From contig NZ_CP056783.1 of NCBI RefSeq assembly GCF_023278045.1, positions 3,381,501 through 3,445,500 of the forward strand: 64,000 nt of DNA, read 5' to 3'. Shown here in pieces: positions 18,929-33,312 of this stretch. Both the position numbers and the translations under genes were made by a program. Positions within the stretch are counted from its first letter, which is position 1, and every line of letters starts with the position of its first letter. This DNA comes from Flavobacterium sp. K5-23. Its GTDB lineage: Bacteria > Bacteroidota > Bacteroidia > Flavobacteriales > Flavobacteriaceae. The notes under the pieces were generated by a model. It saw only the letters and a list, made by a program, of their open reading frames with translations. It was not told the origin of the DNA and did not search any database.

Positions 18929-20860
18929 CTATTTAGCGTATAGTTTTCTATCCACTATTCGATCCATATAATCTTGTATGAAAGCTTTGCAATTCAATTC
19001 TACAGCATCCATTTCAGGATTTCTGTTTTTAATCAAATTATGTTTTAATGCTTTATCGTCTTTATCGTAAAAACCAAGTGCATTTTTACCATCAAATGTA
19101 CATATATAATTCCCTTTAGAAAATTGGTATATATTTCCCGTGGAATTTATCACAAAAGGCTCACTTGATTTCTTGTCTAATAAACTTCTCCCCCAACTCC
19201 TAAAAGGTTTCTCATACCCTATCATATCTAAGATAGTAGGATAAATGTCTATTTGTTGCGCTAAATCAGTATCAACGCCTACGTACTTACTATTGGGCTG
19301 ATAAATCAATATAGGAACCGCATAACGGTTGATAGGTTTTCTATATTCGTCATAAAATATTTGGTTACAATGATCAGCTACAATAACAAAAATAGTATTA
19401 GAAAACCAAGCTTCTTTTTTAGCACTGTCAAAAAACTGTTTTAATGCAAAGTCAGTATATTCAACGCATTTATGCATGGGAACTCCTCCTTCATGAAAAG
19501 TCTTTTTATATTTATCAGGTATGATATATGGTTCGTGAGAGGAAACGGTAAATGCCGAAGCAAAAAACGGCCCTTTCTTTTTATCCAATGTTTTCTTCAT
19601 GTACTGTAGAAATGGTTCGTCCCATATTCCCCAAAATCCATCAAATTGACTATCATCATTAAACTCTGTTCTTCCGTAATAATTATCAATCCCCAGGATA
19701 TTACTAAATCCTAGAAATCCCATCGATCCATTGGCAGCACCGTGAAAAAAAGAAGTGTCATATCCTTCACTTTTCAATACTGAAACGATTGATTCTATTT
19801 TTTGTTTTGGATAAGGAGAAGACGTAAAAGCATCTTTAAAAGACGGTATTCCAGATAAAACTGATGACATTCCATGAATTGATTGTCTCCCATTTGCATA
19901 ACCATTTGTATAAATCATACTGTGTTGTGACAAAGAATCTAAAAATGGAGCGTGGCTTTTATAATTTGGGATGTTTGCGTCTTTATTAAAAGCGCCAATA
20001 TATTCACGCCCGTAGCTTTCTAGAATAAGAACAACCACATTAGGTTTAGATTTAGGATTGTTATGGTAGCTTTTTATAGGCTGCACTAAACTTGCAATCA
20101 CTTGTTGATTTACATCAGGGTAAGAAGTCTTTAAAAAACTATTGCTAAACAAAGTTCTAATTATAGAAAACGGAGTGTTTAAAACAATATCCGAATGTAC
20201 GATGTTCTTCACATGACGGCTAGCGTCCAAAAGATTAATAGGTCGGGTTGATTTCTTAAAATCACCGCCACGAATTCCTCCAATAACCATAGTCACTACA
20301 AACAAGAAACCAACAGTTGAAAATCCTAAATACGGAATGTGTTTTAAAGGATTAAAATCCTGAACCACTACTTTTTTATAGAGATATATCCATAGCGTTG
20401 ACAGAGCTAGAAACAATACAAATACATGCCAATACTCAATTAGAAAATTACTAAATAGTATTACTTTATTCGTCTCGTGTTCTAATACGTTCATAACTGC
20501 CGTAGTTGTACGAGCAAATGTGAATTTATAGTAAATGAAATCTATAAAATTTGTGGCATAGGCCAAAAGGTTTGTAAAAAAATACAAGTAGAAAAGAAAT
20601 TTCTGATATCCTTTATTTGTGTTTTTATAAAAGGGTAGTATCGAAAAAACGATAAACAAAATATTAACGTAAAGTATAGCAGTTGTATCAAAGGCCAAAC
20701 CATAATAACTTAAAGACATAAAATCAGAAACTGACTCTACTCTAAGTAAATCTGAATTGTATAGGTAAAATAAAATTCGGGAGATGAAGTAAAAAAAGTA
20801 AGCTAATAAAAGCCTAAATCCCAGTACTTTGTATTCGTTTAAGCGCAAGTGTTTTTGCAT
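18929..20860 (-). CDS. LtaS-like phosphoglycerol/phosphoethanolamine transferase (sulfatase fold)
   Basis: The 643-residue product has five N-terminal membrane helices (to about residue 210) and a large periplasmic sulfatase-fold domain. Metal and nucleophile regions are visible: NVVVLILESYGREYIG, the likely nucleophile loop ANGRQSIHGMSS, FHGAANGSMGF, and VADHCNQIFYDEY. This is the architecture of lipoteichoic-acid synthase and relatives that move phosphoglycerol or phosphoethanolamine onto surface glycans or lipids. The exact group transferred is not decided by sequence. A TACCTTTG -7-like box lies at 20889-20896. It probably forms an operon with the phosphatase downstream. Confidence 0.87.
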   Translation of the reverse strand: MQKHLRLNEYKVLGFRLLLAYFFYFISRILFYLYNSDLLRVESVSDFMSLSYYGLAFDTTAILYVNILFIVFSILPFYKNTNKGYQKFLFYLYFFTNLLAYATNFIDFIYYKFTFARTTTAVMNVLEHETNKVILFSNFLIEYWHVFVLFLALSTLWIYLYKKVVVQDFNPLKHIPYLGFSTVGFLFVVTMVIGGIRGGDFKKSTRPINLLDASRHVKNIVHSDIVLNTPFSIIRTLFSNSFLKTSYPDVNQQVIASLVQPIKSYHNNPKSKPNVVVLILESYGREYIGAFNKDANIPNYKSHAPFLDSLSQHSMIYTNGYANGRQSIHGMSSVLSGIPSFKDAFTSSPYPKQKIESIVSVLKSEGYDTSFFHGAANGSMGFLGFSNILGIDNYYGRTEFNDDSQFDGFWGIWDEPFLQYMKKTLDKKKGPFFASAFTVSSHEPYIIPDKYKKTFHEGGVPMHKCVEYTDFALKQFFDSAKKEAWFSNTIFVIVADHCNQIFYDEYRKPINRYAVPILIYQPNSKYVGVDTDLAQQIDIYPTILDMIGYEKPFRSWGRSLLDKKSSEPFVINSTGNIYQFSKGNYICTFDGKNALGFYDKDDKALKHNLIKNRNPEMDAVELNCKAFIQDYMDRIVDRKLYAK

Positions 20861-20998
20861 TCCTTGGTTTTTAATTAGTAAAACTTTGCAAAGGTATTGT
20901 ATTTATTTTGTTTCCGATTGTTAAATTAAACACAAATATAAGTTGTTGTATATCAGTAGATTAACATTCGAAAAGACAATATTTAATTTTGCTTTTGG

Positions 20999-21883
20999 TT
21001 ATTCAACTCTTTTTTGTCTATGCTTGATAATTCCGTTTAGGATAACAGTTAGGATAATGATAAAAGCACCTATGTAAAAAGAAGTGCTCATCTTTTCTTT
21101 CCCGCCAATGATATAATACGCTAATACTATGCCATAAACTGGTTCTAGGTTAGTGGTAAGCATAACGGTATAAGGACTTAGCTTCTCCATAACCTTTACT
21201 GATGCTGTAAAAGCATAAGCCGTACATACTGAAGCCAGTAACAAAATCAGCATCCAATTGTTTAATGTCAAAACAAAGAAGTCTAAAGAGAATTTATTTT
21301 GTGTTAAAAAGTAAAGCGTTATAAAAAACACCCCAGCCACAAACTCATAAAAAGTGATTACTGAGGAATCGTGATCCAATATTAATTTTCCATTAAAAAG
21401 AGTAAACAACACTCCAAGAATTATAGAAACTAAGGCATATAGCATTCCCTCAAGGTAATTTACCTCAACTTTCATAATCATTCCCAGCCCAGCTATGATG
21501 ATTAGACCAAAAAACACTTCATACCAAAGTATCTTTCGACCATAAAATAACGGTTCTAATAAAGACGCAAAAAAAGCTCCCAATGAAAAAACCGAAAGTG
21601 TAATGGAAACATTAGAAATATGAATGGCGTGGAAAAAGAATATCCAATGCAAAGCAATCAATAAACCCACAAAAATAAGTTTAAGTAAGGATTTCATTGG
21701 GATAAGGAATGACTTTTTCTTAAACACAATAAAAAACAGTAGAAATACAGCAGCAAAAAGCATTCGATACCAAACTAAAGCATCAGCAGTAATGGTAATT
21801 AAAGCGCCTAATATGGCAGTGAATCCCCAGATAAAAACAATTAAATGAAGATTTAAATAACTTTTAAATTTATCGTTTTGCAT
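20999..21883 (-). CDS. EamA-family (DMT) transporter
   Basis: From the ATG of MQNDKFKSYLNLHLIVFIWG the product is 294 residues with ten predicted membrane helices in two EamA repeats. The first has HLIVFIWGFTAILGALI and the second GMLYALVSIILGVLFTLFNGK. Such proteins export small metabolites or amino acids; the substrate is unknown. The ATG lies 14 bp inside the end of the LptF/G-type permease gene upstream, so translation is coupled. A frame extending to 21940 lies within that neighbour and is not used. Confidence 0.88.
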   Translation of the reverse strand: MQNDKFKSYLNLHLIVFIWGFTAILGALITITADALVWYRMLFAAVFLLFFIVFKKKSFLIPMKSLLKLIFVGLLIALHWIFFFHAIHISNVSITLSVFSLGAFFASLLEPLFYGRKILWYEVFFGLIIIAGLGMIMKVEVNYLEGMLYALVSIILGVLFTLFNGKLILDHDSSVITFYEFVAGVFFITLYFLTQNKFSLDFFVLTLNNWMLILLLASVCTAYAFTASVKVMEKLSPYTVMLTTNLEPVYGIVLAYYIIGGKEKMSTSFYIGAFIIILTVILNGIIKHRQKRVE

Positions 21884-22958
21884 TTCGTAATAAAAATATC
21901 GCCAATATCCCAAAAACAACATTGGGAAACCAAACGGCAATTAAAGGTGAGAAAGTGGATTTTTCGGCTAGTACTCCAAAAATTTTATCAAAAAAGACAA
22001 ACCCAAAAGCAATAGCAATTCCTATGGTTAAATTCATTCCCATTCCGCCTCTACGTTTCATTGCAGATACTGAAACGGCAATAATGGTAAGAATAAATGC
22101 TGAAACAGGAACTGAGAATTTTTTATACAATACCACCATATATACATTGATATTTGAGGAACCGCGTTTTTTCTCCTTATCAATAAACTTATATAATTTA
22201 TTTAAACTAAGGGTTTCCGCTATATATACCACTGGAGTCAAATCTTCTAAATCAAAACTGAACTTGGCTTTTTTCTCAGCCTCTTTTTCAATTTTATCCC
22301 CAAGTTCCCCCACCGTTCTTTTAGTATAATCATACATGGTATAAGTACTATCCTTTGGGTTCCATTTTATTCTACTTGCCGTAATTTTAGATTCTAATTT
22401 CTCCTTATTGAATTTTTCTAAAACAAAATTAAAAGCGGTTTTAGATTCCGTATTAAAGCTATTTACATATAAAAACTCGTTCTCACTTATTTGTCGATAC
22501 ACATCAGTATTATCGCCACGCATTGCTTCTTTCCCTCCGGTTTTCAGGTAGGTATACCTAAAATTATTGAACCCTTCACTCGATACCGGAACAACGTAAA
22601 AACCCATTAATAATACAAAAACAGATATAAGGGAAGCACCAATGATATAAGGCCTTAAAAAACGGGTAAACGATATTCCCGAGCCAAGAATGGCAATGAT
22701 TTCCGTATTATTAGCCAACTTTGAGGTAAACCAAATAATGGATAAAAACAGGAAAATGGGAAACAAGGAATTGGCAAAATAAATCGTGAAATGATAATAA
22801 TAAACCACAATATCCCAAAAAGGAACTTTATGCTCTATCATAAAATTAATCTTTTCAGACACATCAATGATAATCCCAATAGGTATAAACAGCAACAACA
22901 TAGCCGAAAAAGTGGCTAAATATCTTTTCAGAATGTACTTGTCTATTATTGTTAGCAT
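21870..22958 (-). CDS. LptF/LptG-family permease
   Basis: The 362-residue product has the YjgP/YjgQ layout: membrane helices near residues 10-35, 55-80 and 95-125, a large periplasmic beta-jellyroll domain (about 130-265), and three C-terminal helices (VPVSAFILTIIAVSVSAMKRRGGMG...). The N-terminal ILKRYLATFSAMLLLFIPIG matches the family start. It forms the membrane part of the LPS export machine with LptB. It is followed by an overlapping EamA transporter gene. Confidence 0.92.
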   Translation of the reverse strand: MLTIIDKYILKRYLATFSAMLLLFIPIGIIIDVSEKINFMIEHKVPFWDIVVYYYHFTIYFANSLFPIFLFLSIIWFTSKLANNTEIIAILGSGISFTRFLRPYIIGASLISVFVLLMGFYVVPVSSEGFNNFRYTYLKTGGKEAMRGDNTDVYRQISENEFLYVNSFNTESKTAFNFVLEKFNKEKLESKITASRIKWNPKDSTYTMYDYTKRTVGELGDKIEKEAEKKAKFSFDLEDLTPVVYIAETLSLNKLYKFIDKEKKRGSSNINVYMVVLYKKFSVPVSAFILTIIAVSVSAMKRRGGMGMNLTIGIAIAFGFVFFDKIFGVLAEKSTFSPLIAVWFPNVVFGILAIFLLRNAKR

Positions 22959-23064
22959 TTAAAAAGGTTTAAGGTTTAAGGTTTAAAAGTTTAAAGTTCA
23001 AGACGATTGCAAATACATTCACACCGTTTTAAACTTTAAACTAAAAAAACTTTAAACATTTTTT
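22959..23064. repeat. Iterated GGTTTAA and TTTAAAGTT inverted repeats
   Basis: The 106-bp gap between tgt (minus) and the permease gene (minus) holds three copies of AAGGTTT in tandem near 22975, then GTTTAAAGTT, and later AAACTTTAAAC twice. The arms can pair into one large A/T hairpin that may terminate the tgt transcript. The motif is simple and could have arisen by slippage. Confidence 0.5.
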
Positions 23065-24195
23065 TTATAATCTCTGGTTCATATTTTTAACCATCATATC
23101 TTTCCAGGTTCTAAAATCACCGGCGATAATGTGTTTTCTAGCCTCACGAACAAGCCACATATAGAAACCAAGGTTGTGAATCGTTGCGATTTGTTTCCCT
23201 AGGTATTCATTTGCAGCAAACAGGTGACGTAAATACGCTTTGGTATACTCTGTATCCACATAAGTAAGTGCCATTTCGTCAATAGGCGAAAAGTCATCAG
23301 CCCATTTTTTATTCTTGATATTGATCGTACCGTTAGCGGTAAACAACATACCGTTTCTAGCGTTACGCGTAGGCATCACACAGTCAAACATATCAATTCC
23401 CAGTGCAATGTTTTCCAAAATATTGATAGGTGTTCCCACTCCCATTAAGTAACGGGGTTTGTCCTCTGGCAAAATTTCACAAACCACTTCGGTCATTGCG
23501 TACATTTCCTCCGCAGGTTCCCCTACTGATAGTCCACCAATAGCGTTTCCTACTTGGTTTGAATTCGCAATATATTCGGCTGATTGTTGACGCAAGTCTT
23601 TGTAACAACTTCCTTGAACAATTGGGAAAAAAGCTTGGTCGTAACCATATTTCATAGGCACCTTCTCCAAATGATTCACACATCGGTCAAGCCAACGGTG
23701 GGTCATTTTCATCGAGCGCTTCGCGTAATTATAATCACAAGGATATGGTGTACACTCATCAAAAGCCATAATAATATCGGCACCTATGGTACGCTGAATT
23801 TCCATAACATTCTCAGGTGTAAACACGTGGTATGAACCGTCAATATGCGATTTGAATCGAACTCCTTCTTCCTTAATCTTACGGTTAGCCGAAAGTGAAT
23901 ACACTTGGTATCCACCTGAATCCGTCAAAATATTACGGTCCCAGTTCATAAATTTATGCAATCCACCCGCTTTTTCAAGAATTTCCGTTTGAGGACGCAA
24001 GTATAAATGGTAGGTGTTTCCCAGGATAATATCTGGGTTTATATCTTCTTTTAGCTCTCTTTGGTGCACCCCTTTAACCGAGGCAACAGTCCCAACAGGC
24101 ATAAAAATTGGTGTTTCAATAACACCGTGATCTGTAGTAATGCTTCCCGCTCTAGCTTTAGTATGCGGGTCTTTTTGTAATAAATCAAACTTCAT
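23065..24195 (-). CDS. tgt: Queuine/preQ1 tRNA-ribosyltransferase
   Basis: The 376-residue TIM-barrel enzyme exchanges guanine-34 of GUN-anticodon tRNAs for preQ1. The general acid/base Asp92 lies in ILTDSGGYQVYS and the nucleophile Asp271 in MFDCVMPTRNARNG; the binding-pocket PIVQGSCY and GGLSVGEP are intact. The usual zinc-binding CxCxxC is absent: the segment at about 307-314 reads DEMALTYV, and only His340 (TIHN) of the four zinc ligands remains. A good promoter lies upstream at 24227-24257. Confidence 0.95.
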   Translation of the reverse strand: MKFDLLQKDPHTKARAGSITTDHGVIETPIFMPVGTVASVKGVHQRELKEDINPDIILGNTYHLYLRPQTEILEKAGGLHKFMNWDRNILTDSGGYQVYSLSANRKIKEEGVRFKSHIDGSYHVFTPENVMEIQRTIGADIIMAFDECTPYPCDYNYAKRSMKMTHRWLDRCVNHLEKVPMKYGYDQAFFPIVQGSCYKDLRQQSAEYIANSNQVGNAIGGLSVGEPAEEMYAMTEVVCEILPEDKPRYLMGVGTPINILENIALGIDMFDCVMPTRNARNGMLFTANGTINIKNKKWADDFSPIDEMALTYVDTEYTKAYLRHLFAANEYLGKQIATIHNLGFYMWLVREARKHIIAGDFRTWKDMMVKNMNQRL

Positions 24196-24226
24196 AATAC
24201 CGTTTTTCTACCGATTGTTCGGCGGG

Positions 24227-24257
24227 CAAAGATAGGTTAATTTGAAAACCTCATCAA
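24227..24257 (-). promoter_or_regulatory. tgt promoter (Bacteroidota type)
   Basis: On the minus strand TTG (24257-24255), exactly 20 bases, then TATCTTTG (24234-24227) match the Bacteroidota sigma consensus TTG-N~20-TAnnTTTG. It lies about 32 bp before the tgt ATG. Confidence 0.8.
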
Positions 24258-24377
24258 ATATTTTTTTTTATTCTAATTGAAATAAAAAAGAGGGCTCCTA
24301 ACCACCAAATTTCAAATAACACTCCGGAAGAAAACTAGAGAATTAGATATATAAAAATGTTTTAATATTTCCTTTTG

Positions 24378-24477
24378 GGCGTGTCCTCCGCAAAAAGCTA
24401 CGGTCAGGCTATTCGCTTTATCTTTCTGTCGCTAAAGAAGCGCCATAAAGGATACCGCTGCTATCCTTCACGCGAAA
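24378..24477. repeat. Structured palindromic element of about 100 bp
   Basis: The outer arms GGCGTG near the left end and CACGCG near the right end can pair. Inside, TATCTTT and AAAGGATA with TCGCT/AAGCG form a long imperfect hairpin, and CGCTTTATCTTTC is echoed by CGCTGCTATCCTTC. Its base composition is visibly more GC-rich than its surroundings. I recall similar elements scattered between genes in Flavobacteriia; the family assignment is from memory and not verified. Confidence 0.6.
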
Positions 24478-24667
24478 CACTACATTCAATGATAAAAAAC
24501 CATAAAATAAAAGCTACAAATATCACTTTGAAAAATGTTTTGTCTTACTTTTTTTATAAATTCGCTGAATGATAGTAGTGTCATCTATACACAAATGCAA
24601 ATAAAGTTGATGTTATAAACAAGTTGCCGGCAAGCAGCGAAAAAATGACCGTTAAAAAGAAAAACTA

Positions 24668-25843
24668 ATGAAAAACAGAATTATTCTAATTACTATATCA
24701 ATATTGTTAATTACGATTTCTTGTAAGAAAACAGAAGAAAAAATAGAAATAAATGTAACTGATTATATTTCAAATATTCCAACTGATAAATCATTCAAAA
24801 ACAAATTCATTGTTTTAGAATTTTGGGCAACTTGGTGTGCACCTTGCCTTTCGGCAGTTCCGCATATAAATGAATTACAAAATAAATTTAAATCGAATAA
24901 TGATTTAATTTTTGTTTCAATTACAGATGAAAAAGCCGAAAAGGTAAGAAATACTTTAAAACATATTGAGTTTAGTACAATTGTCATTAGCGACCAAACT
25001 AAAAAAACACATAAAACATTAAATGTTTCTGCAATTCCAATAACAGTTTTAATTGACAATAATGGAATAGTAAGGTGGAAAGGAAATCCAGAAGAACTTA
25101 ATGAAGAACTTATTGAGAAATTTATTAACGGAAAAATTTCACCTAATATTGATAATAAAAAGACTAATATCGAAGGTGCAAAAAGTCAAGATGATAAAAA
25201 CAATGAAGATTTGGAAGATGTTGTTTTTAAGATAATCAAAAACAAGCAAACAAAATATACATTTACTTTAATAAATACAAATGGAAACAACTCAATGATT
25301 GCAAGTGCATTAGTTAAAGGGAAATATATTGCATCAAATAAAAAATTATCTGAAATCATATCAAATTTGCTAGATATTAATGAACAACAAGTAATAATTT
25401 CTGAAAAATTTAAAAACAATAAATATAGTTTGATTTATAAAAATTCCGATATAAAATCTGCTGAAAGTGGAATTGCAGACATAATATACAATTTGCTTAA
25501 AACATTAGATTTAAAAGAAATTATTCAAAATAAAAACACTGAAATTTACAAATTAAAAATAATTGATAAAAATAAAATAGAAATATCAAAAGAACCTAAA
25601 ACAGAAATTGGACATTCAGGCAGTAGTACAAAAATCGTTTGTTCAAATACAGAAATAAAATCTTTAATTAACGAAATAAATAACAGTTTTAATATTTTAG
25701 TTAAGGACGAAACTAATTTAAAAGGTAAATATGACTTTCTTATAAGAAATAAATCGATGGAAAATCTAAAACAAGATTTAGAAAAGTATGGATTGAAATT
25801 AGAAAAAACAATAGAAATAGAAAAATTATATAATTACAACTAA
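24668..25843 (+). CDS. Thioredoxin-like (TlpA) lipoprotein fused to a DUF3738-like domain
   Basis: The 391-residue product has a lipoprotein signal (ILLITISCKK), a TlpA/ResA-type thioredoxin domain (about 35-160) with active site WCAPC in FWATWCAPCLSAVP and cis-Pro in SAIPITVL, then a Lys/Asn-rich linker. The C-terminal region of about 190 residues contains NLKGKYDFLIR and LEKYGLKLEKT, which match the signature of the DUF3738 (TIGR03435) family. It would be a membrane-attached thiol-disulfide protein facing the periplasm. It is unusually AT-rich and Asn/Lys-rich and lies alone between palindromic spacers, suggesting horizontal acquisition. Confidence 0.8.
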   Translation: MKNRIILITISILLITISCKKTEEKIEINVTDYISNIPTDKSFKNKFIVLEFWATWCAPCLSAVPHINELQNKFKSNNDLIFVSITDEKAEKVRNTLKHIEFSTIVISDQTKKTHKTLNVSAIPITVLIDNNGIVRWKGNPEELNEELIEKFINGKISPNIDNKKTNIEGAKSQDDKNNEDLEDVVFKIIKNKQTKYTFTLINTNGNNSMIASALVKGKYIASNKKLSEIISNLLDINEQQVIISEKFKNNKYSLIYKNSDIKSAESGIADIIYNLLKTLDLKEIIQNKNTEIYKLKIIDKNKIEISKEPKTEIGHSGSSTKIVCSNTEIKSLINEINNSFNILVKDETNLKGKYDFLIRNKSMENLKQDLEKYGLKLEKTIEIEKLYNYN

Positions 25844-25845
25844 CT

Positions 25846-25978
25846 CTGCCAGCCGACAACCGCTGTTTTGATATAGTGTTTGATTTAGTGGAATTGTCGT
25901 TTCGCATCAAGTTTTCGTTAAACCGAAAATTGAGCGTTTACGAACTTCCAGCCATCTTAAAGTGGCATTCGTTGGCAG
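25846..25978. repeat. Palindromic spacer 1 (cassette-boundary-like)
   Basis: This 133-bp spacer starts 2 bp after the thioredoxin gene stop. Outer arms CTGCCAGCCGA and TCGTTGGCAG pair imperfectly with bulged bases, and inner AGTTTTCG/CGAAAATT arms form the tip. The block AGTGGAATTGTCGTTTCGC (25887-25905) recurs with one change in spacer 2 (26660-26678), and GAAAATTGA..G.TTACGAA recurs as well. The organisation (bulged long hairpin following each single gene) recalls integron attC sites, though no attC core sequence was confirmed. Confidence 0.6.
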
Positions 25979-26024
25979 TAATATTACCGGAAATTGAGAG
26001 TAACAACTAAACTAGAAAATAAAA

Positions 26025-26621
26025 TTGGAAAAAAGTTCATATCAAAAAATAGAAGAATTAAGTAATGTTAAATCAGAAAATTTACTTGGATTTAAATCTA
26101 TGGAGGATTATGAAAAATGCCTCTTACATATTGAAAATTTATTAAATAGCGCAATATTACTTTACAAAAACAACTTTATAAACCAATCTTTCTTTTTAAC
26201 AATCACATCAATTGAAGAAATAGCTAAAGCTGAAGTTTGTATATATAGAGGATTTCAAAAACCAGATAAAACTGTTAAACGCAATAAAGATGGATTATTT
26301 AATCATAAAACAAAGCATCTTGTTGCTGCAAATGAAATAACATTTAAATTCTTAAAATCAATATCAAAAATAGGAATAGAAGAAACAATTTTAATTAAAG
26401 ATAAATTAAATAATGGTGAGTTTGTAAGCCTAAGGGAATCCTCATTGTATTTTGAAAATTGTCAAAATGGAACAAAAACACCTAATGACTTAATTACAAA
26501 AACAGATTGCTTAAATCTTCTCTTAATTTGCATTGAAATTTTTGAAGACAGATTATTTGGATTCAGCGATAAAACAGACATCATAACAGATCGAGTTTTA
26601 ATGAAACTAAATGAAATTTAA
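26025..26621 (+). CDS. AbiV-like HEPN abortive-infection protein
   Basis: The 198-residue product is helical, with IENLLNSAILLYKNNFINQS and LTITSIEEIAKAEVCIYRG, the AbiV/HEPN pattern (alternating helices with a conserved Glu-Glu-x-x-Lys). AbiV family proteins block phage multiplication, and HEPN domains are often RNases; the canonical RxxxxH is not obvious here, so nuclease activity is uncertain. The frame begins with TTG at 26025; an ATG at 26100 would give a shorter protein. It sits alone between two related palindromic spacers, apart from any other defence gene. Confidence 0.7.
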   Translation: MEKSSYQKIEELSNVKSENLLGFKSMEDYEKCLLHIENLLNSAILLYKNNFINQSFFLTITSIEEIAKAEVCIYRGFQKPDKTVKRNKDGLFNHKTKHLVAANEITFKFLKSISKIGIEETILIKDKLNNGEFVSLRESSLYFENCQNGTKTPNDLITKTDCLNLLLICIEIFEDRLFGFSDKTDIITDRVLMKLNEI

Positions 26622-26625
26622 ATAC

Positions 26626-26741
26626 AGCTGCCAACAGCCATTTAAGCTAGCTGGGATTCAGTGGAATTATCGTTTCGCTTCCTATTTTCTGCAATCCTGA
26701 AAATTGAAGGGTTACGAAGCACACACCACTTCAAAGCAGCT
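26626..26741. repeat. Palindromic spacer 2 (cassette-boundary-like)
   Basis: This 116-bp spacer begins 4 bp after the AbiV-like stop codon. Outer arms AGCTGC (26626-26631) and GCAGCT (26736-26741) are complementary and inner ATTTTC/GAAAAT arms form the tip. AGTGGAATTATCGTTTCGC (26660-26678) differs from spacer 1 at one of 19 positions, and the second block GAAAATTGA..G.TTACGAA has the same order and nearly the same distance (45 versus 43 bp). Outer arms differ between the spacers while the inner core is conserved. Confidence 0.6.
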
Positions 26742-26763
26742 AAATATACACAAGCAAAAACGA

Positions 26764-27288
26764 ATGAAATACCTACTAACAGGTCAAGAAACCGAAAGGC
26801 TAAAATTTAGGCTACTGAGATCAGATGACTTCAATTCTTGGATAAATTTATTTAAAGCAAATAATATTGCGGAATATTTACAACTTGATCCTAAACTATC
26901 CGAATCTGAATTATGCAAGTTATGGTTTGACAAAGTGTTTCATAGATACGATAATGATTTGGGAGGAATGAACGTCCTAATTAATAAAACAACAAACCGA
27001 ATTGTTGGTCAATGTGGTCTTCTAGTTCAAACAATTGAAAGTGTCGAGAGATTAGAAATTGGTTATTCTATTCTTCCTGAGTTTTGGAAACAAGGATTTG
27101 CAATTGAAGCTGCAACAAAATGTAAAAATTATGCATTTGAAAACAATAGTGCTGATTCATTAATCTCAATGATCCATATCGATAATTTAGACTCTGAAAA
27201 AGTCGCTTTAAGAAATGGAATGACCTTTGAAAAAAAAGTGAACTCTTTTAACATTTTTCGGATTGACAAGGAGAATTGGAAACCATAA
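26764..27288 (+). CDS. GNAT-family N-acetyltransferase (RimJ/RimL-like)
   Basis: From the ATG of MKYLLTGQETERLKFRLLRS the product is 174 residues. It shows the RimJ/L-type order: TERLKFRLLRSDDFNSWINL, the substrate-side strand GGMNVLINKTTNRIVGQCGL, acetyl-CoA-binding EIGYSILPEFWKQGFAIEAA and the late NLDSEKVALRNGMTFEKK. It would acetylate a protein N-terminus or a small amine; the substrate is unknown. A frame extending to 26704 runs into palindromic spacer 2 and is rejected. It is the third single-gene module of this stretch. Confidence 0.85.
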   Translation: MKYLLTGQETERLKFRLLRSDDFNSWINLFKANNIAEYLQLDPKLSESELCKLWFDKVFHRYDNDLGGMNVLINKTTNRIVGQCGLLVQTIESVERLEIGYSILPEFWKQGFAIEAATKCKNYAFENNSADSLISMIHIDNLDSEKVALRNGMTFEKKVNSFNIFRIDKENWKP

Positions 27289-27331
27289 AAGCCAGTAAAC
27301 AATCAAGCTAAGAATAAATGATGTTGATTTT

Positions 27332-27401
27332 GTCATTTCGACCATCGGGAGAAATCACATAAAGAGCGTAACTGATGTGATTTCTCCTTCGTCGAAATGA
27401 C
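27332..27401. repeat. Long near-perfect hairpin (REP/MITE-like)
   Basis: GTCATTTCGAC (27332-27342) pairs with GTCGAAATGAC (27391-27401); inside, GGAGAAATCACAT pairs with ATGTGATTTCTCC, with a 14-base loop. The stem is about 28 bp with a small internal mismatch. I recall GTCATTTCGAC-type hairpins as dispersed repeats in many bacteria, so this may be a known repetitive family. It lies between the acetyltransferase module and the next gene. Confidence 0.8.
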
Positions 27402-27513
27402 AAATAAACCCTTAACCTAATGAAATTTGGACGTGCCGCTCCACTGAGAATTTGATTCTCGTATAAGGCGATTCCTAAAATGAATTATAAAAATCCAACA
27501 TAAATCAAAAAAA

Positions 27514-28248
27514 ATGAAAACTAAATTAGAAAAAAAAGTCAACTTTTTAACGGGATATGCAATTGTAAGTAGTCTTGTTTTTAGCGTGGTTATTTTAAGC
27601 TCTTTTGGTAAAGAAGATAAAAAAGAAACTTTTGACGAAATCACTACAAAAAAAATCAACTTAATAGGTGAAGATGGCAGCCTAAGAATGGTACTCAGTA
27701 ATGAAACCAGACAACATTCAGGTAGAATGAACGGAAAAGATTACCCAAAAAGAGAAAGACCGGCCGGTATGATTTTCTTTAATGATGAAGGAGACGAGTG
27801 TGGCGGTTTAATTTTTGCAGGAAAAACCAAAGACAACAAAACCAGCTCAGGAATGTCATTTACAATGGACAATTACCACGATGACCAAGTAATTCAACTC
27901 TTAAATACGGAAGAATATGAAAATGGTAAAAGTTTTATTCAAAGAGGGCTAACCATCAATGAGTTTCCGTTAGGCTCAAACATAGACACCAGAAACGCAA
28001 AGTTTGAAGAACTGGAAAAAATAGAAAACAAGGAATTAAGGAACCAAAAAATGGATGAATTATGGGCCAAAGAAGGCTCAAAAAGGAGATTGTTTATTGG
28101 ACGAAATAAATCCAACAGTTCCGGTTTATTTCTATACGATAAAGAAGGAAATCCAAAAATAAAAATTCACGTAGACGAAGAAGGAAATCCAAAAATTGAA
28201 ATCGTGGATAAAAACGGAAAAACAAGAAATTTTCTTGAAAGCAAATAA
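27514..28248 (+). CDS. Membrane-anchored protein with repeated EGNPKI motif
   Basis: The 244-residue product has a cytoplasmic basic N-terminus, a single membrane helix (about 10-30, FLTGYAIVSSLVFSVVILSS) and a hydrophilic extracytoplasmic domain. It ends with a duplicated strand unit, KEGNPKIKIHVD then EEGNPKIEIVDKNG, and has related glycine-rich units before (EDGSLRMVLSNE, DEGDECGGLIFAG). The short D/E-G-x-x-h-h-h repeats suggest a beta-helix or beta-solenoid. No name can be assigned. It is monocistronic and ends at a bidirectional terminator. Confidence 0.7.
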   Translation: MKTKLEKKVNFLTGYAIVSSLVFSVVILSSFGKEDKKETFDEITTKKINLIGEDGSLRMVLSNETRQHSGRMNGKDYPKRERPAGMIFFNDEGDECGGLIFAGKTKDNKTSSGMSFTMDNYHDDQVIQLLNTEEYENGKSFIQRGLTINEFPLGSNIDTRNAKFEELEKIENKELRNQKMDELWAKEGSKRRLFIGRNKSNSSGLFLYDKEGNPKIKIHVDEEGNPKIEIVDKNGKTRNFLESK

Positions 28249-28381
28249 TAAAATCAGGTTTTAGACATTTGGGTTTTGGATTTATTTTCGAACTGAAAAA
28301 AAACTAAACTGAAATCATCTTTTATTTTAATTAAGATCTAATTTTCAAAAACACATTTCGTCTTACGACAACTATAACCAT

Positions 28382-28423
28382 AAAAAAACCGCTACTTTCC
28401 AACTAGGAAAGAGCGGTTTTTTT
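28382..28423. terminator. Bidirectional terminator
   Basis: AACCGCT and AGCGGTT form the base and CTTTCC/GGAAAG the upper stem around a 5-base loop, with A and T runs on either side. It separates two converging genes. Confidence 0.88.
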
Positions 28424-28437
28424 ACTAATTCAAAATA

Positions 28438-28905
28438 TTAAAAAAGACCTAATCGCACACTTGGTGTATTTACTCGTATTTGCGTATTTACTGAAGTACT
28501 GCGAGGGCTTCTCTGGTAATTACGTTGGTCGTATTGATAATAATAAAACCCTGCGTGATGGTAAAATGAATCACTGTGGTAACAATGGTCATCACAATGA
28601 TAATGATGTTCAGCATAGGCGTCTTTTTTCCCTTGCACATAGGCACGATGCGCCCTGTTATTGTCTTCCTTTAAATCTCTTTCATATTGTTTCTGTTCTT
28701 TCCAGAAGGCTTTTTCTTCAGCTTTCGTTTTGGCTTTGAATTCCATCTCAAAACGAGCGTCTTCGGCTCCACGTTGCTCGTAATACGCTATCTTATCTTG
28801 ATTTGTATTTACTCTTGTTTCGCTTTTTACTTTGGCTTCTTGAGCATTCATTGATACTACTGTTCCCAAAAACACTATTGCTATTACCGTATTAATTGTT
28901 TTCAT
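28438..28905 (-). CDS. Secreted His/Tyr-rich protein
   Basis: The 155-residue product has a signal peptide (MKTINTVIAIVFLGTVVSMN), an acidic/basic helical part with repeated Glu-Lys (about 40-92) and a cluster rich in His, Cys and Tyr (about 99-130: AEHHYHCDDHCYHSDSFYHH then AGFYYYQYDQRNYQ). The cluster has 9 His and 2 Cys within about 20 residues, which could bind metal ions (zinc, copper or nickel) outside the inner membrane. No family is recognised. It is monocistronic. Confidence 0.7.
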   Translation of the reverse strand: MKTINTVIAIVFLGTVVSMNAQEAKVKSETRVNTNQDKIAYYEQRGAEDARFEMEFKAKTKAEEKAFWKEQKQYERDLKEDNNRAHRAYVQGKKDAYAEHHYHCDDHCYHSDSFYHHAGFYYYQYDQRNYQRSPRSTSVNTQIRVNTPSVRLGLF

Positions 28906-29118
28906 AATTTTTAATTTTATTGATAGTACGTTATCGTTTGTAATGCTACCTTCAATAGTAAGACAACTGTAAACTAGTTTACCCTACCCTATTATCAAAA
29001 AAATATTTTTTCAAGCTAACAATAAGAGCTTCAATGTGTGAATAAAGTAACTTAAACCCATAATTGTATAATGCATCGATAAGATAAAATGTGGAATTTT
29101 GTAACTTACAAATTAGTT

Positions 29119-29964
29119 ATGAAAAAAATAATTCTCCTATTAAGCGTTGTCCTTGTGTTGTTCTCCTGCAAGAAAAGCGAAACAAACAATGCTGTTGAAA
29201 CAAAAAAAGTGCGTGTAAGAAAACAACCAAAAACGATTTCTTATACCCTAGAAAAAACAAAACAGTGGTTAGAAAAAATCGCAAATGATTCCTCAAAAAT
29301 TCATATTGCCTTTGCGATTAACAGAACTGACAAAGCAAATTTCGTGCAAATGGATTCGGTCATTATCCCTACAGATATGAGTGGTGATATTGAATTTTAT
29401 CTTCCGTTTCCTCATCATATTGATTATTTAAAAGACATTGATAAAATTATCTATTTCTCTTACCCTACACAAACATTTGCCGCTTATGAAAATGGGGAGT
29501 TAATTTATACGGGACCAACCAATATGGGACGAAAGAAAGACCAAACACCTACTGGCCTATTCTTTACCAACTGGAAGGCAGAACAAACTATCAGTACATT
29601 TAATGATGAATGGGATTTACGATGGAATTTTAATATTGAAAACAAAGAAGGTGTGGGATGGCATCAATATAGTTTACCAGGTTACCCGGCTTCGCATTCT
29701 TGTTTACGTCTTCAGGAAAAAGATGCTCGTTATCTTTATGACTGGGCTGACCAATGGATTCTAGCCGATGAGGAAAATGTAAAAGTGAAGGGAACTCCTG
29801 TACTTGTTTTTGGTTCTTATAATTTTGATGCACCAAAACCTTGGTTGCAGTTAATTGCTAATCCAAAGGCCATAGACATTTCAGAGGATGAAATTGAAAA
29901 AGTAACCAAGCCTTTCTTAAGCGCTATTTTATTGGAACAAAAAAACAGAAAAGCAAATAAATAA
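29119..29964 (+). CDS. L,D-transpeptidase lipoprotein (YkuD domain)
   Basis: From the ATG of MKKIILLLSVVLVLFSCKKS (lipobox LFSC) the product is 281 residues. The YkuD catalytic motif HxxxxxxxxxSxxC is visible as HQYSLPGYPASHSCLRL with Cys near residue 195. Preceding strands (FAAYENGELIYTGPTNMGRK, TPTGLFFTNWKA) match the domain. The enzyme would form 3-3 cross-links or attach proteins to peptidoglycan in the periplasm. The frame's earlier in-frame start at 29089 would destroy the lipoprotein signal, so 29119 is preferred. Confidence 0.9.
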   Translation: MKKIILLLSVVLVLFSCKKSETNNAVETKKVRVRKQPKTISYTLEKTKQWLEKIANDSSKIHIAFAINRTDKANFVQMDSVIIPTDMSGDIEFYLPFPHHIDYLKDIDKIIYFSYPTQTFAAYENGELIYTGPTNMGRKKDQTPTGLFFTNWKAEQTISTFNDEWDLRWNFNIENKEGVGWHQYSLPGYPASHSCLRLQEKDARYLYDWADQWILADEENVKVKGTPVLVFGSYNFDAPKPWLQLIANPKAIDISEDEIEKVTKPFLSAILLEQKNRKANK

Positions 29965-30017
29965 ACTAAAAACATTAATTTTACTAGAAAAAGAAGCTAT
30001 CCAGTAAAAAAAATAAA

Positions 30018-30551
30018 ATGATTCCAAGAATTGAAAGTCTAATCGCGAAAAAGTTAATTGGAAAAAGTCTTTCGATGTCTGTATCCCAAGATAAAACCCA
30101 GGAATTATGGCAAAGCTTTATGCCCAGACGTAATGAAATAGAAAATCGTGTGGGCACTGAATTCTATTCTATGCAAATGTATCCTCACACGTATTTTGCT
30201 AATTTCAATCCAAATACTGAATTCGAAAAATGGGCAACCGTTGAAGTGACGGACTTTGATACCGTTCCTAATGATATGAAGTCCTTTATATTAAATGGAG
30301 GACAATATGCTGTGTTTCTCCATAAGGGATCCAACAACATTTACGGTATGTTCGAATACATTTTTACTACTTGGTTACCTAATTCAGAATACGATATAGA
30401 CGACAGACCTCATTTTGAAATATTGGGAGACAAATACAAACGAAATGAAGAAAGTTCAGAGGAGGAAATTTGGATTCCAATAAAAAATAAAGAGCTAAAA
30501 ATTGACAATTCGAATTTGAATTCAAAAACCGAAATAAAAGTTAATATATGA
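30018..30551 (+). CDS. GyrI-like small-molecule-binding domain protein
   Basis: The 177-residue product lacks a signal peptide and an HTH domain. Its pattern, PRIESLIAKKLIGKSLSMSV at the start, LWQSFMPRRNEI, a central YSMQMYP, GGQYAVFLHKGSNN and a final DDRPHFEILGDKYK...EEEIWIPIK, matches stand-alone GyrI-like/AraC effector-binding domains. These bind hydrophobic cations or other small ligands and in some cases shield gyrase. It lies between the L,D-transpeptidase and an acetyltransferase on the same strand with gaps of 53 and 95 bp. Confidence 0.82.
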   Translation: MIPRIESLIAKKLIGKSLSMSVSQDKTQELWQSFMPRRNEIENRVGTEFYSMQMYPHTYFANFNPNTEFEKWATVEVTDFDTVPNDMKSFILNGGQYAVFLHKGSNNIYGMFEYIFTTWLPNSEYDIDDRPHFEILGDKYKRNEESSEEEIWIPIKNKELKIDNSNLNSKTEIKVNI

Positions 30552-30646
30552 AATACAAAACAGGAAAAACCGTTTTTAAAACTTTGTATTCTTAACTTAG
30601 TCCTAGTTTACAAAAACATATTCCATTAATTTAAAAAGTCTAAAAG

Positions 30647-31165
30647 TTGATAACATTCGAAACAGAACGATTAATTCTAAAACCTACTACAAAAGAAGAT
30701 GCCGAATTTATTATAGATTTATTAAATACTCCTAAGTGGATTGAATTTATTGGTGATCGAAATGTTTCAACTATAAAAGATGCCGAAGACTACATTGAGA
30801 CAAAAATGACCTCTCAAATGGAGAAACTAGGTTTTGGGAATTATACTCTAATTAGAAAATTCGATAGAGAAAAAATAGGTTCTTGTGGCCTGTACGATAG
30901 AGAAGGTTTAGATGGAGTTGATATCGGATTTGCTTTGTTACCTAAGTATGAAAAAAAAGGATATGCTTTTGAAGGGGCTAACAAACTAAAGGAAGTCGCC
31001 ATCAGTGACTTTAAGCTTAAAGAAATAAGCGGAATTACTTCGAAAAAAAACACAGCATCTCAAAATTTACTGATGAAAATTGGACTTAAATTCGAACGAA
31101 ACATTCTACTTCCAAATGAAACGGAAGAAATACTTTTATACAAATTAAACCTAGAAGATAACTAG
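30647..31165 (+). CDS. GNAT-family N-acetyltransferase
   Basis: The 172-residue product has the RimJ/L-like GNAT fold: ITFETERLILKPTTKEDAEF, the loop IGSCGLYDREGLDGVDIGFA, the acetyl-CoA loop LLPKYEKKGYAFEGANKLKE and NTASQNLLMKIGLKFERNIL. The frame begins with TTG at 30647, and no ATG exists before the conserved ITFETERL, so a TTG start is likely. It belongs to the same broad family as the enzyme at 26764-27288 but is only distantly similar. The substrate is unknown. Confidence 0.85.
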   Translation: MITFETERLILKPTTKEDAEFIIDLLNTPKWIEFIGDRNVSTIKDAEDYIETKMTSQMEKLGFGNYTLIRKFDREKIGSCGLYDREGLDGVDIGFALLPKYEKKGYAFEGANKLKEVAISDFKLKEISGITSKKNTASQNLLMKIGLKFERNILLPNETEEILLYKLNLEDN

Positions 31166-32075
31166 ATTTAGAAAAAGTAATCCGTCTCTTTTTTAACAGA
31201 TAATTAAAATACTACTGTTGTAAATTGTTTACCATATAAGAGATATAAGAACATATAAGTTGTTGCCGCTTCTAGTTAGCTTAAATGGCCTTATTTTCCT
31301 TATATGATTAAAATTTAAGATGTTTGTTTTTTGTGTAAAATCCTTTTACAATATAAGAACATATAAGTTGTTCCCGTTTATAGCTAGCTTAAATGACCTT
31401 ATTTTCCTTATATGGTTAAATCTAAGCTTTCATTCTAGCATTAAATCCTTTTACCATATAAGAGATATAAGAACATAAAAGTTGTTGCCGCTTCTAGTTA
31501 GCTTAAATGGCCTTATTTTCCTTATATGATTAAAATTTAAGATGTTTGTTTTTTGTGTAAAATCCTTTTACAATATAAGAACATATAAGTTGTTCCCGTT
31601 TATAGCTAGCTTAAATGACCTTATTTTCCTTATATGGTTAAATCTAAGCTTTCATTCTAGCATTAAATCCTTTTACCATATAAGAGATATAAGAACATAA
31701 AAGTTGTTGCCGCTTCTAGTTAGCTTAAATGGCCTTATTTTCCTTATATGATTAAAATTTAAGATGTTTGTTTTTTGTGTAAAATCCTTTTACAATATAA
31801 GAACATATAAGTTGTTCCCGTTTATAGCTGGCTTAAATGACCTTATTTTTCTTATATGGTTAAAATTTAAGATGTTTATTTTTGTATAAAATCCTTTTAC
31901 AATATAAGAGATATAAGAACATATAAGTTGTTCCCGTTTATAGCTAGCTTAAATGACCTTGTTTTTCTTATATGGTTAAAATTCAAGCTGTTTTTTTTTG
32001 TAAGCAGACCTAAATCATAATAATCTTCATTCGGAAATCCCCTTTTAAAGTTGGCTCCATAGAGGAAAAAAATGT
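31166..32075. other. 910-bp non-coding region filled by tandem repeats
   Basis: The region between the acetyltransferase and the esterase (converging) contains no credible gene. It is dominated by the seven-unit tandem array listed separately; a short flank lies on either side. Confidence 0.8.
31231..32005. repeat. Higher-order tandem repeat of alternating 117/105-bp units
   Basis: Seven units begin with AC[C/A]ATATAAG at 31231, 31348, 31453, 31570, 31675, 31792 and 31899. Lengths are 117, 105, 117, 105, 117, 107 and about 107. The two unit types share a common frame but differ in the middle (GTTGCCGCTTCTAGTTAGC versus GTTCCCGTTTATAGCTAGC) and in the tail. The A-B dimer (222 bp) is thus repeated, with A1-B1, A2-B2 and A3-B3 almost identical. 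Each unit contains CATATAAG and the complementary CTTATATG about 60-70 bp apart, so each can fold as a stem-loop. Confidence 0.93.
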
Positions 32076-32900
32076 CTATTTATTTAATTTTATAAAATCC
32101 AAAACCTCGTCATAACGGTCGCTCCAAGGATAAAAATATTGAACTACCATAGGCGCGTGTTTTTTGTTAACTCCTATCTGTTTTACATCAGGCTGAAAGG
32201 GTTTTAATGCTTTTACAAAACGAGTGTTGGCTATTTTTATTGATTGATAAGTCTTGTCACCAACATAGATTAAAAAAGGCGGTGTGTTCTTATCTATAAA
32301 ATAAATAGGAGAAGCGTCCTGCCATTTTTCAGCTTCCGTTGTCCAAGTCGTGATATAGTCGTCCTCAGTAGTAGGAGGCCTTTCTCCCAGGTAATGTTTC
32401 ATATCTAAACCTGCAGCATCATTTAGAATTATTCCTGATATACTTTTTGGATCGATTCCGAATTTCGGATTCATAACGGCCAAAGCCCCTAGATGTCCTC
32501 CAGCGGAATGTCCCGTTATAAAAATTTGATTTAGATTTCCATTGTACTTCTTAATATTCTCTTTTGTCCACTGTATTACTTCTGCTATTTGACGAGTCAT
32601 TTGGGCATAATCAGCATTTGGGCTCAAAGTATAATCAGGTATAACTGTGATAACGCCCTTAGCAGCAAAATTCCTTCCCAGCAAATCATAAGTTCCCTTT
32701 CTCCCACTATTCCAGTTCCCGCCATGAACAAAAATCAATACAGGAAGCGTCTCCGCTTTAAAATTTCTTGGAACAAAAACATTCAAACGAGGTGCTTCTT
32801 CAACACTAGAAATGGTTGTTGGCATATAAGAAACATCCTTAACCTTTATAGAACTACAACTCACTAACAACAAAACAAAAACAACAGAATAGAAGCGCAT
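32076..32900 (-). CDS. Alpha/beta-hydrolase (esterase) lipoprotein
   Basis: The 274-residue product has a lipobox (VFVLLLVSCSS) and an alpha/beta-hydrolase domain of the BD-FAE/kynurenine-formamidase-like group. The oxyanion motif is HGGNWNSG, the nucleophile elbow GHSAGGH, the acid Asp lies in LIYVGDKTY and the His in KKHAPMV. It would hydrolyse an ester or amide outside the inner membrane; the substrate is unknown. It is monocistronic and follows the tandem repeat array, which lies at its 3' side. Confidence 0.87.
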   Translation of the reverse strand: MRFYSVVFVLLLVSCSSIKVKDVSYMPTTISSVEEAPRLNVFVPRNFKAETLPVLIFVHGGNWNSGRKGTYDLLGRNFAAKGVITVIPDYTLSPNADYAQMTRQIAEVIQWTKENIKKYNGNLNQIFITGHSAGGHLGALAVMNPKFGIDPKSISGIILNDAAGLDMKHYLGERPPTTEDDYITTWTTEAEKWQDASPIYFIDKNTPPFLIYVGDKTYQSIKIANTRFVKALKPFQPDVKQIGVNKKHAPMVVQYFYPWSDRYDEVLDFIKLNK

Positions 32901-33312
32901 CTTTTTTTTACTAATATAGGTTTTTTATAATCAGAAAATTGACTTGTCATATGTATTTACTCTTAATTCCTTTTTTAAAATTTTCAAACAAAGCAAAATC
33001 AACATAAAAAATTTACAACTATTTTTTTATAAAAAAACCACACTCCCCCTATTCCATTGCACTATACTTTCTTAGTAAAGAAAAACATTCTGTTATTACA
33101 AAGAAACACCCTATTATTTTTAGTTAATTAACAACTATTATCATTATATTTAGTTAATTAACAACTACTTAGCGCTATATTTTTAGTAAATTTATATTGT
33201 TACAAAATCTAACGCGTAGGATTTTGAAAACAAACAATTAATAAATTAGGGTATGAATGTTTGATTTATACTTTCAAAATAATAACTACTAATAATTTAA
33301 AAACAAACTATT
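32901..33312. other. Promoter region with duplicated GTTAATTAAC palindrome
   Basis: This 412-bp divergent gap separates the esterase (minus) from the ferritin-like gene (plus). The only clear structure is a direct repeat of TTTAGTTAATTAACAACTA; the rest is AT-rich without genes. Confidence 0.5.
33119..33167. promoter_or_regulatory. Putative operator: two identical 19-bp boxes, 30-bp period
   Basis: TTTAGTTAATTAACAACTA occurs at 33119-33137 and again, identical, at 33149-33167. Each contains the perfect palindrome GTTAATTAAC (33123-33132 and 33153-33162). A centre-to-centre distance of 30 bp is close to three helical turns, as for a dimeric regulator binding cooperatively on one DNA face. It lies about 146 bp upstream of the ferritin-like gene. 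Confidence 0.5.

Follow-up and report, generated by a model that had tools for sequence, protein, structure and literature searches.

The 64,000-nucleotide (nt) window analysed here, from Flavobacterium sp. K5-23, carries three forward genes in a row between tgt and an unrelated gene. Open reading frame (ORF) positions and Pfam matches identify them as a Redoxin/DUF3738 gene, an AbiV gene and a GNAT acetyltransferase gene, in agreement with the three single genes of the initial annotation. The region very probably represents the orphaned remains of a Bacteroidota cassette platform of integron-like type, served by a tyrosine recombinase that is not of the IntI type. The spacers behind the first two genes are members of a family of attC-like hairpin sites, and compared with its relatives the window reads as two cassettes, thioredoxin/DUF3738 and AbiV, followed by a GNAT gene that has no site. 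The case is built from comparison: one-way arrays, private cassette ends, covariation within the sites, sharing of cassettes with exact ends, co-occurrence of sites and recombinase, recombinase relics, and decay of the site cores. The private ends, exact sharing and co-occurrence support the earlier suggestion that Bacteroidota have a cassette system driven by recombination, which relies on a distant integrase and carries an anti-phage gene.

Hairpin sites and the cassettes between them

The covariance-model search proposed in the initial annotation for this genome and other Flavobacteriia did return related sites. The first spacer (site 1), used as a query against the window's own genome (a single contig of 3.49 Mb), matched 17 other places at E < 1e-4. 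A covariance model built from 35 copies (R1, biased toward the window's subfamily) found 27 sites there at E < 0.01, in about 12 clusters. The final model, R2, was rebuilt on 148 sites, its outer stem of 18 pairs being drawn by hand; at E ≤ 1e-4 it finds sites in 172 of the 199 sampled genomes of the genus. Aligned copies have the form ..YAAC-A-stem-NNAAC-GTTR.., with a median length of 124 nt. The R2 stem has 635 compensatory cells against 239 ± 16 in shuffled and 98–128 in slid controls (covariation score 0.574 vs 0.189), although the count is biased toward structure, since the alignment was fitted to R1, which already contained 8 of the 18 pairs; the inner helices lie outside R1. As in attC sites, then, the covariation counts point to an imperfect hairpin whose structure is conserved.

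In the arrays of the relatives and of the window's genome, 197 matches gave 193 sites after removal of a weak site at locus L100 and of three antisense matches that overlap sense sites. All sites within a locus lie on a single strand, giving arrays of one orientation. Full flanks are available for 191 sites, and 162 of these have AAC..GTT. The left core box of classical integrons is written RYYYAAC. Among the 162 sites, RYYYAAC occurs in 7, the right-hand box GTTRRRY in 10, and the pair that marks an IntI-type integron in none, so the earlier remark that no classical core is seen holds strictly: the sites end in AAC and GTT, rarely in the full boxes. (The available text of PMC7923331 prints the integron core box as RYYYACC.)

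What defines a cassette is the relation between its ends. The letters after GTT, where a cassette starts, are the reverse complement of those before the AAC of the next site, where it ends. Of 126 neighbouring pairs (spacing < 3000 bp), 114 have facing ends that match in at least 6 of 7 positions, against 3.8% for random ends, 6 of 110 for pairs that skip one site, and 4% for the two ends of the same site; the matching letters lie outside the covariance models. Similarly, 11 of 14 pairs match at loci from named records, where the 17 of 80 loci with a downstream site were used. When a cassette is joined to its own start (128 pairs, 12-nt flanks, DNA folding), the hairpin is stabilised in 120 of 128 cases, with a mean of −26.1 vs −20.8 kcal/mol; a random partner gives a mean of −20.6 kcal/mol, and a chromosomal partner is no better (p = 0.36). 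Each cassette thus appears to have private inverted ends that would pair in the excised circle, which is the logic of integron attC sites.

Near-identical cassettes occur in different species: one of 605 bp at 99.8% identity in genomes G237 and G157, and one of 758 bp at 96.3% in G184 and G180. The identity sets in at the shared end of the preceding site and breaks off within one base of the following GTT. Because such cassettes occur in different species with exact ends, it is likely that whole cassettes move. Several cassettes are also repeated within the array of another relative, G044. At the tgt locus itself, tblastn of 20 relatives (3.9–15.5 kb each) found none of the three window genes.

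That the spacers follow single genes, as had been proposed, is mostly true. Of 155 cassettes, 102 encode just one ORF of 60 amino acids (aa) or more, in forward orientation, and another 6 encode just one in antisense. In 135 of 151 cassettes the longest ORF runs forward, and the stop codon then lies a median of 13 nt before the AAC. For content, 121 of 140 cassette ORFs were scanned (19 omitted, 16 antisense) which, together with the window thioredoxin and GNAT genes, makes 123. These match 90 Pfam families (GmrSD, Mrr, HNH and RES domains among them); at E ≤ 1e-5, they also match 151 PADLOC models, with SduA, AbiV, REase and cyclase among the 25 listed. With AbiV, SduA, Mrr and GmrSD among their products, the cassettes would be a hunting ground for defence genes.

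Five of the 193 sites begin with CAC in place of AAC, the AAC core being broken by an insert on the strand opposite to the cassettes. These are group II introns in site cores, at:

L100:6027-7932
L053:14759-16664
L056:13871-15775 and 18953-19901
L087:2890-4644

Four inserts, all in the window's own genome, are the same intron (99.0–99.8% identity, one copy being partial), and the insert in G151 is related (88%, 1760 bp). Rfam recognises a group II intron in two of them, and the intron ORF has RVT_1 and GIIM domains. Judged by eye, the target on the bottom strand is CTGT/T in four and GTGT/T in one.

The array-head recombinase and its attI-like site

The recombinases encoded at the heads of the arrays carry PF00589, a SAM-like domain and the catalytic residues. 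They are close to two known families without fitting the integron one. Against the integron-integrase model TIGR02249 (cut-off 265 bits), none of the 199 genus genomes has a match above the cut-off; there are many two-part matches of 100–128 bits, several of them directly upstream of site arrays. Five array-head proteins score 213.6–218.8 bits, compared with 440–487 for six IntI from other phyla. NF040815 (XerA, cut-off 220 bits) is the best NCBIfam family for the three proteins of the 350-aa type (224.5–230.9 bits), and the two of the 583-aa type fall below its cut-off. The interval from box II to HxxR is 57–62 residues in the array-head recombinases vs 99 in the six IntI, and residues 183–240 of IntI4 are unmatched; the proteins thus lack the IntI-specific insertion as well as a family score above the cut-off. 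In a quick tree, the six IntI form one clade without any Bacteroidota array-head recombinase. PADLOC gave no match for the one array-head recombinase submitted to it.

An N-terminal domain of about 60 aa has no Pfam match. Since the match to the XerA structure (PDB 5hxy) begins at profile residue 69, this domain is extra relative to XerA. It is weakly matched once or twice in longer forms of the protein; those at L080, L086, L171, L173, L190 and L195 have open frames of 462–704 aa. A structure model of the 347-aa form (predicted local distance difference test 79.5; predicted template modelling score 0.50, so that domain placement is uncertain) has XerA (5hxy) and IntI4 (2a3v) as its best matches. 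It may be conjectured that the N-terminal domain resembles a single-strand or fork binding domain. Weak matches to it are also found in recombinases from metagenome-assembled genomes of Spirochaetota, Undinarchaeales and Firmicutes (L181, L182 and L187), at which R2 found no sites. At L099:799-5556, in G022, a more distant recombinase (41% identity) has three R2 matches upstream on the opposite strand, which is the divergent layout of classical integrons.

Just behind the recombinase gene lies what appears to be the insertion point. In 15 of 17 loci, a cassette start stands 47–156 nt after the recombinase stop with an end match of at least 6 of 7 to the first cassette; the call takes the best of all GTT positions, which favours matches. 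Ten of these 15 attI-like starts come directly after ATAWACAA. The arrangement is that expected of attI, a site beside the integrase gene at which cassettes are inserted. The motif TAnnTTTG, which we take to be the −7 promoter motif of Bacteroidetes, lies no more than 45 nt from the recombinase stop in 13 of 17 loci, against a 3.5% background, and could possibly be a promoter before attI. At the 80 loci from named records, R2 finds 34 sites, 31 of them downstream of the recombinase and on its strand, in 17 loci; these include Flavobacterium enshiense DK69, F. aciduliphilum, Algoriphagus ornithinivorans and Alkalitalea saponilacus.

A scheme can be drawn from these parts. In intact copies, the gene for the tyrosine recombinase (about 350 aa, also 584 aa and longer) stands just upstream of the attI-like site, often ..ATAWACAA|GTT, and is transcribed toward it. 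Past attI, cassettes that mostly hold one gene follow each other in a single orientation, and every cassette closes with an attC-like hairpin (AAC, long imperfect stem, GTT). A cassette has the form GTT-N7 ... N7'-AAC-stem, N7' being the reverse complement of N7, and its excision would rebuild a fully paired site. The recombinase would bind the folded strand, probably the bottom one, and cut at the AAC/GTT core, and cassettes would be inserted at attI or at other sites. We infer the catalysis, the strand, the direction of insertion and expression from a promoter before attI. In the window's genome, the recombinase gene has decayed and the cassettes persist as orphans.

Distribution and the probable orphan state of the window

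The recombinase profile (E ≤ 1e-60) finds a match in 118 of the 199 genus genomes and, in a Bacteroidota sample of 392 genomes from 178 genera, in 120 genomes of 81 genera; R2 finds sites in 144 of the 392 (87 genera). Site counts refer to the best 18 matches per genus genome and the best 9 per genome of the Bacteroidota sample. Within the genus, the median number of sites is 15.5 with the recombinase vs 3 without it (best 18 per genome; Mann-Whitney p = 1.8e-12). The wider sample includes 26 genomes of the window's genus; among the 366 outside it, 75 have both recombinase and sites, 32 only the recombinase, 48 only sites and 211 neither (Fisher p = 8e-21). The co-occurrence statistics ignore the kinship of the genomes. 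The co-occurrence of a tyrosine recombinase with the spacers, a check proposed in the initial annotation, is seen both within the genus and beyond it.

The window's own genome has no hit to the recombinase profile at E ≤ 1e-60. Its PF00589 matches are XerC/D-like genes, three others and one relic, with no array-head recombinase among them. At 2.103 Mb, a C-terminal piece of a recombinase survives (68% identity over 65 residues), and an attI-like sequence and sites follow it. The attI model finds seven further attI-like copies heading six loci of the genome, and the last recombinase codons are kept before the copies at L058 and, by eye, L053. The integrase that had not been seen in the window is thus missing from the whole genome, since the recombinase survives there only as relics. 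Of the 33 own sites, 14 keep an intact AAC..GTT core, whereas at loci of relatives the figure is 148 of 160 (p = 5e-10), a decay that would be expected of orphan sites.

The window features are as follows.

23065..24195, minus strand: tgt, the flanking gene (NCBIfam TIGR00430, 489 bits)
24398..24478, minus strand: Flavo-1 RNA element between tgt and the attI-like end (Rfam RF01705, 51.8 bits)
24600..24622, plus strand: tentative attI-like end AATAAAGTTGATGTTATAAACAA, directly 5' of cassette 1 (short-sequence match)
24623..25970, plus strand: putative cassette 1 (sequence; cassette rule from the relatives' arrays)
24668..25843, plus strand: gene for a thioredoxin-like (Redoxin) + DUF3738 protein, 391 aa (Pfam)
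25858..25973, plus strand: attC-like site 1, AAC...GTT (R1 110.1 bits; R2 85.9 bits, E 7e-18)
25971..26745, plus strand: putative cassette 2 (sequence; joined ends paired in the predicted fold)
26025..26621, plus strand: AbiV-like HEPN abortive-infection gene, 198 aa, TTG start (Pfam, PADLOC)
26633..26748, plus strand: attC-like site 2, right core decayed, ATA replacing GTT (R2 60.2 bits, E 8.5e-12)
26764..27288, plus strand: GNAT acetyltransferase gene, third module (Pfam)

In the 64-kb window, R2 finds only the two sites at 25858-25973 and 26633-26748, the next match having an E-value of 0.026. The start of cassette 1, GTTGCCGGC (24623-24631), is an inverted match of its end, GCCGACAAC (25852-25860), with one mismatch. 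The start of cassette 2, GTTGGCAG (25971-25978), matches CTGCCAAC (26628-26635) perfectly in inverted form, and these ends bound the AbiV cassette. Its HEPN_AbiV domain is above the curated cut-off (67.9 bits vs 27.1, E 1.4e-18 in Pfam; PADLOC AbiV 9.3e-49), and the gene is probably anti-phage (defence) cargo. The sequence TTGATGTTATAWACAAGTT occurs in 3 of 131 loci, the window (L001) and the attI of two integrons of the 584-aa type, L080 and L086; its 20-nt form has one match in the window with two mismatches (18/20), where 0.00 are expected.

The 24-nt block common to the two spacers (25882-25905 and 26655-26678) does, as had been reported, differ at two positions, and lies within a 48-nt repeat of 75% identity. 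The spacers fold with z-scores of −3.0 and −2.8 against 200 shuffles, of which 2 and 1 were equally good. An Rfam scan of window positions 20000-33000 left the spacers unmatched at E ≤ 1, Flavo-1 being the sole family found, and a plasmid search with the site 1 sequence gave zero matches. The further claim, that a hairpin of this kind comes after each gene, stands for these two spacers and is not confirmed for the third. The hairpin at 27328-27402, after the GNAT gene, is a near-perfect palindrome (TTGTCATTTCGACC.., folding z −6.3) that R2 does not match, and was rejected as a cassette site; it is a different dispersed repeat, with a second copy upstream of the attI-like site at about 0.639 Mb of the same genome (L049). 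No R2 match lies 3' of the GNAT gene in the window, and the array is truncated there. Farther along, at 31220-31990, an imperfect tandem repeat with a unit of about 230 bp (by eye) follows a GyrI-like/Cass2 gene (30018-30551) and another GNAT gene (Pfam).

The tgt locus carries traces of the same platform in relatives. In G044, a recombinase gene (L132, G044:C1:3275999-3277039, with one in-frame TAG) and attI lie directly beside the tgt orthologue, and a second copy of the recombinase heads a long array at 0.24 Mb. A relic of the recombinase end with attI lies beside the tgt orthologue in G029 and perhaps in G007, where the E-value of the attI model is only 0.19. R2 sites occur in 3 of the 20 relatives' tgt loci, in one case about 9 kb from tgt. 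In the window's genome, Flavo-1 elements also stand just upstream of three other attI-like copies (L053:17508-17590, L062:13947-14024 and L049:8975-9058). Flavo-1 stands about where the recombinase gene would be, and was perhaps inserted with the loss of that gene.

Competing explanations and known systems

Several observations weigh against an orphaned cassette platform. Twelve of the 126 adjacent pairs do not pass the end test; in 16 of 151 cassettes the antisense strand carries the longest ORF, and two or more ORFs of at least 60 aa occur in 43 of 155. Within the genus, 7 of the 118 genomes with the recombinase show no site and 26 of the 81 without it have at least 5, and outside the genus 48 of 366 have sites and no recombinase at E ≤ 1e-60, with 32 in the reverse state. 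In the window, site 2 has lost its GTT, the GNAT module has no site by R2, and the attI-like end is known by a short match only, a hidden Markov model of 14 attI sequences giving no hit there. The relatives' loci were selected for carrying the recombinase, and the array figures describe those loci only; the site table and the distribution tables were transcribed by hand into scripts; and recombination itself is deduced from sequence comparison.

Could the system simply be a canonical IntI-family integron with divergent attC sites, and hence merely a new taxon for known integrons? This is unlikely, though it deserves to be taken seriously. The architecture is the same, TIGR02249 is among the best families (213.6–218.8 bits, five proteins), IntI4 (2a3v) is the second-best structural match, group II introns sit at the same core position, and the available part of PMC8138268 describes an "integron-like" subgroup of recombinases in which the insertion is incompletely conserved. 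However, no genome of the genus (0/199) exceeds 265 bits, whereas the six IntI score 440–487; the insertion is absent (57–62 vs 99 residues), the IntI form a clade of their own in the quick tree, and the classical boxes are all but missing (RYYYAAC in 7 and GTTRRRY in 10 of 162 sites, both in 0). Since the features that define IntI fail, the system is set apart from canonical IntI integrons, though integron-like in its working as far as the sequences show.

It is far less probable that the cassettes are moved by the host XerC/XerD or another general recombinase, with the array-head recombinase as a passenger. The 26 of 81 genus genomes that have at least 5 sites without an array-head recombinase would fit this, as would the XerD- and XerC-like genes kept in the window's genome. 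However, site number tracks the array-head recombinase (15.5 vs 3, best 18 per genome), which sits at attI, and the cores have decayed where it has been lost (14/33 vs 148/160 intact). Almost negligible is the chance that the spacers are dispersed intergenic hairpin repeats (terminators, RNA elements, REP-like or IS200-type) that stand behind genes by accident. Good folding and a position just after stop codons are what such repeats would show, but they leave unexplained the private matching ends, whose test we take as a refutation, the cassette-exact sharing across species, and the single orientation of arrays behind a recombinase with an attI-like insertion point; moreover, the spacers match no Rfam family at E ≤ 1 (window 20000-33000).

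Why would such a system have escaped notice? Integrons are held to be rare in Bacteroidetes, yet the recombinase is present in 120 and the sites in 144 of the 392 sampled genomes. According to the available text of PMC9024848 (IntegronFinder 2.0), only In0 elements were known there before one complete integron was found in Salinibacter ruber; Bacteroidota are named among integron-bearing phyla in the accessible parts of PMC8618304 and PMC9668308. A literature search, which did not reach subscription papers and preprints, found no description of the present system. It appears to be an overlooked relative of integrons, present in many Bacteroidota, and the probable reason for the oversight is that search models demand IntI and classical cores. 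If this is true, an important path of gene exchange within a large phylum has gone unseen; the system would also offer a second recombinase solution for hairpin sites and a natural test of the purpose of the IntI insertion. A broader proposal seems to us slightly more credible than not: that Bacteroidota have their own phylum-wide integron class, whose recombinase stands between XerA and IntI and has either lost the IntI insertion or always lacked it. Its N-terminal domain, repeated in the longer forms, would grip the folded attC-like hairpins as a second solution for hairpin-cassette recombination, and defence genes would be stocked in numerous scattered platforms, of which several have outlived their recombinase, keeping attI and cassettes.

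Among known systems, the closest are the sedentary chromosomal integrons (IntI/attI/attC). Like these, the present system has a tyrosine recombinase, attI and a one-way array of mostly single-gene cassettes, with imperfect hairpin ends, end complementarity private to each cassette, and group II introns in the site core. It differs in a recombinase that lacks the IntI insertion, scores below the IntI cut-off and has an N-terminal domain unmatched by Pfam, and in cores that read YAAC and mostly GTTR, rarely RYYYAAC and GTTRRRY. In the available text of PMC7923331, group IIC-attC introns of integrons lie in the direction opposite to the cassettes and target TTGT/T at the R'' box. The introns found here have the same core position and opposite orientation, and are identified as group II only. 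The chromosomal integrons of Treponema are likewise transcribed toward attI, and are set apart, by the description in the accessible part of PMC3607928, by their intI type and different phylum. XerA-type recombinases, which act in chromosome dimer resolution according to the available part of PMC8138268, provide the best family for three of the proteins (NF040815) and the top structural match (5hxy), with the N-terminal domain as an addition on the present side. Finally, the arrays of the window and of its genome resemble the clusters of attC sites lacking integron-integrases (CALIN), as these are described in the available text of PMC9024848, in being site clusters for which no working integrase was found: the window has two attC-like sites, in a genome without an array-head recombinase at E ≤ 1e-60. 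They differ from CALIN in that their sites lie outside the classical core and were called with R2 rather than with the attC model of IntegronFinder.

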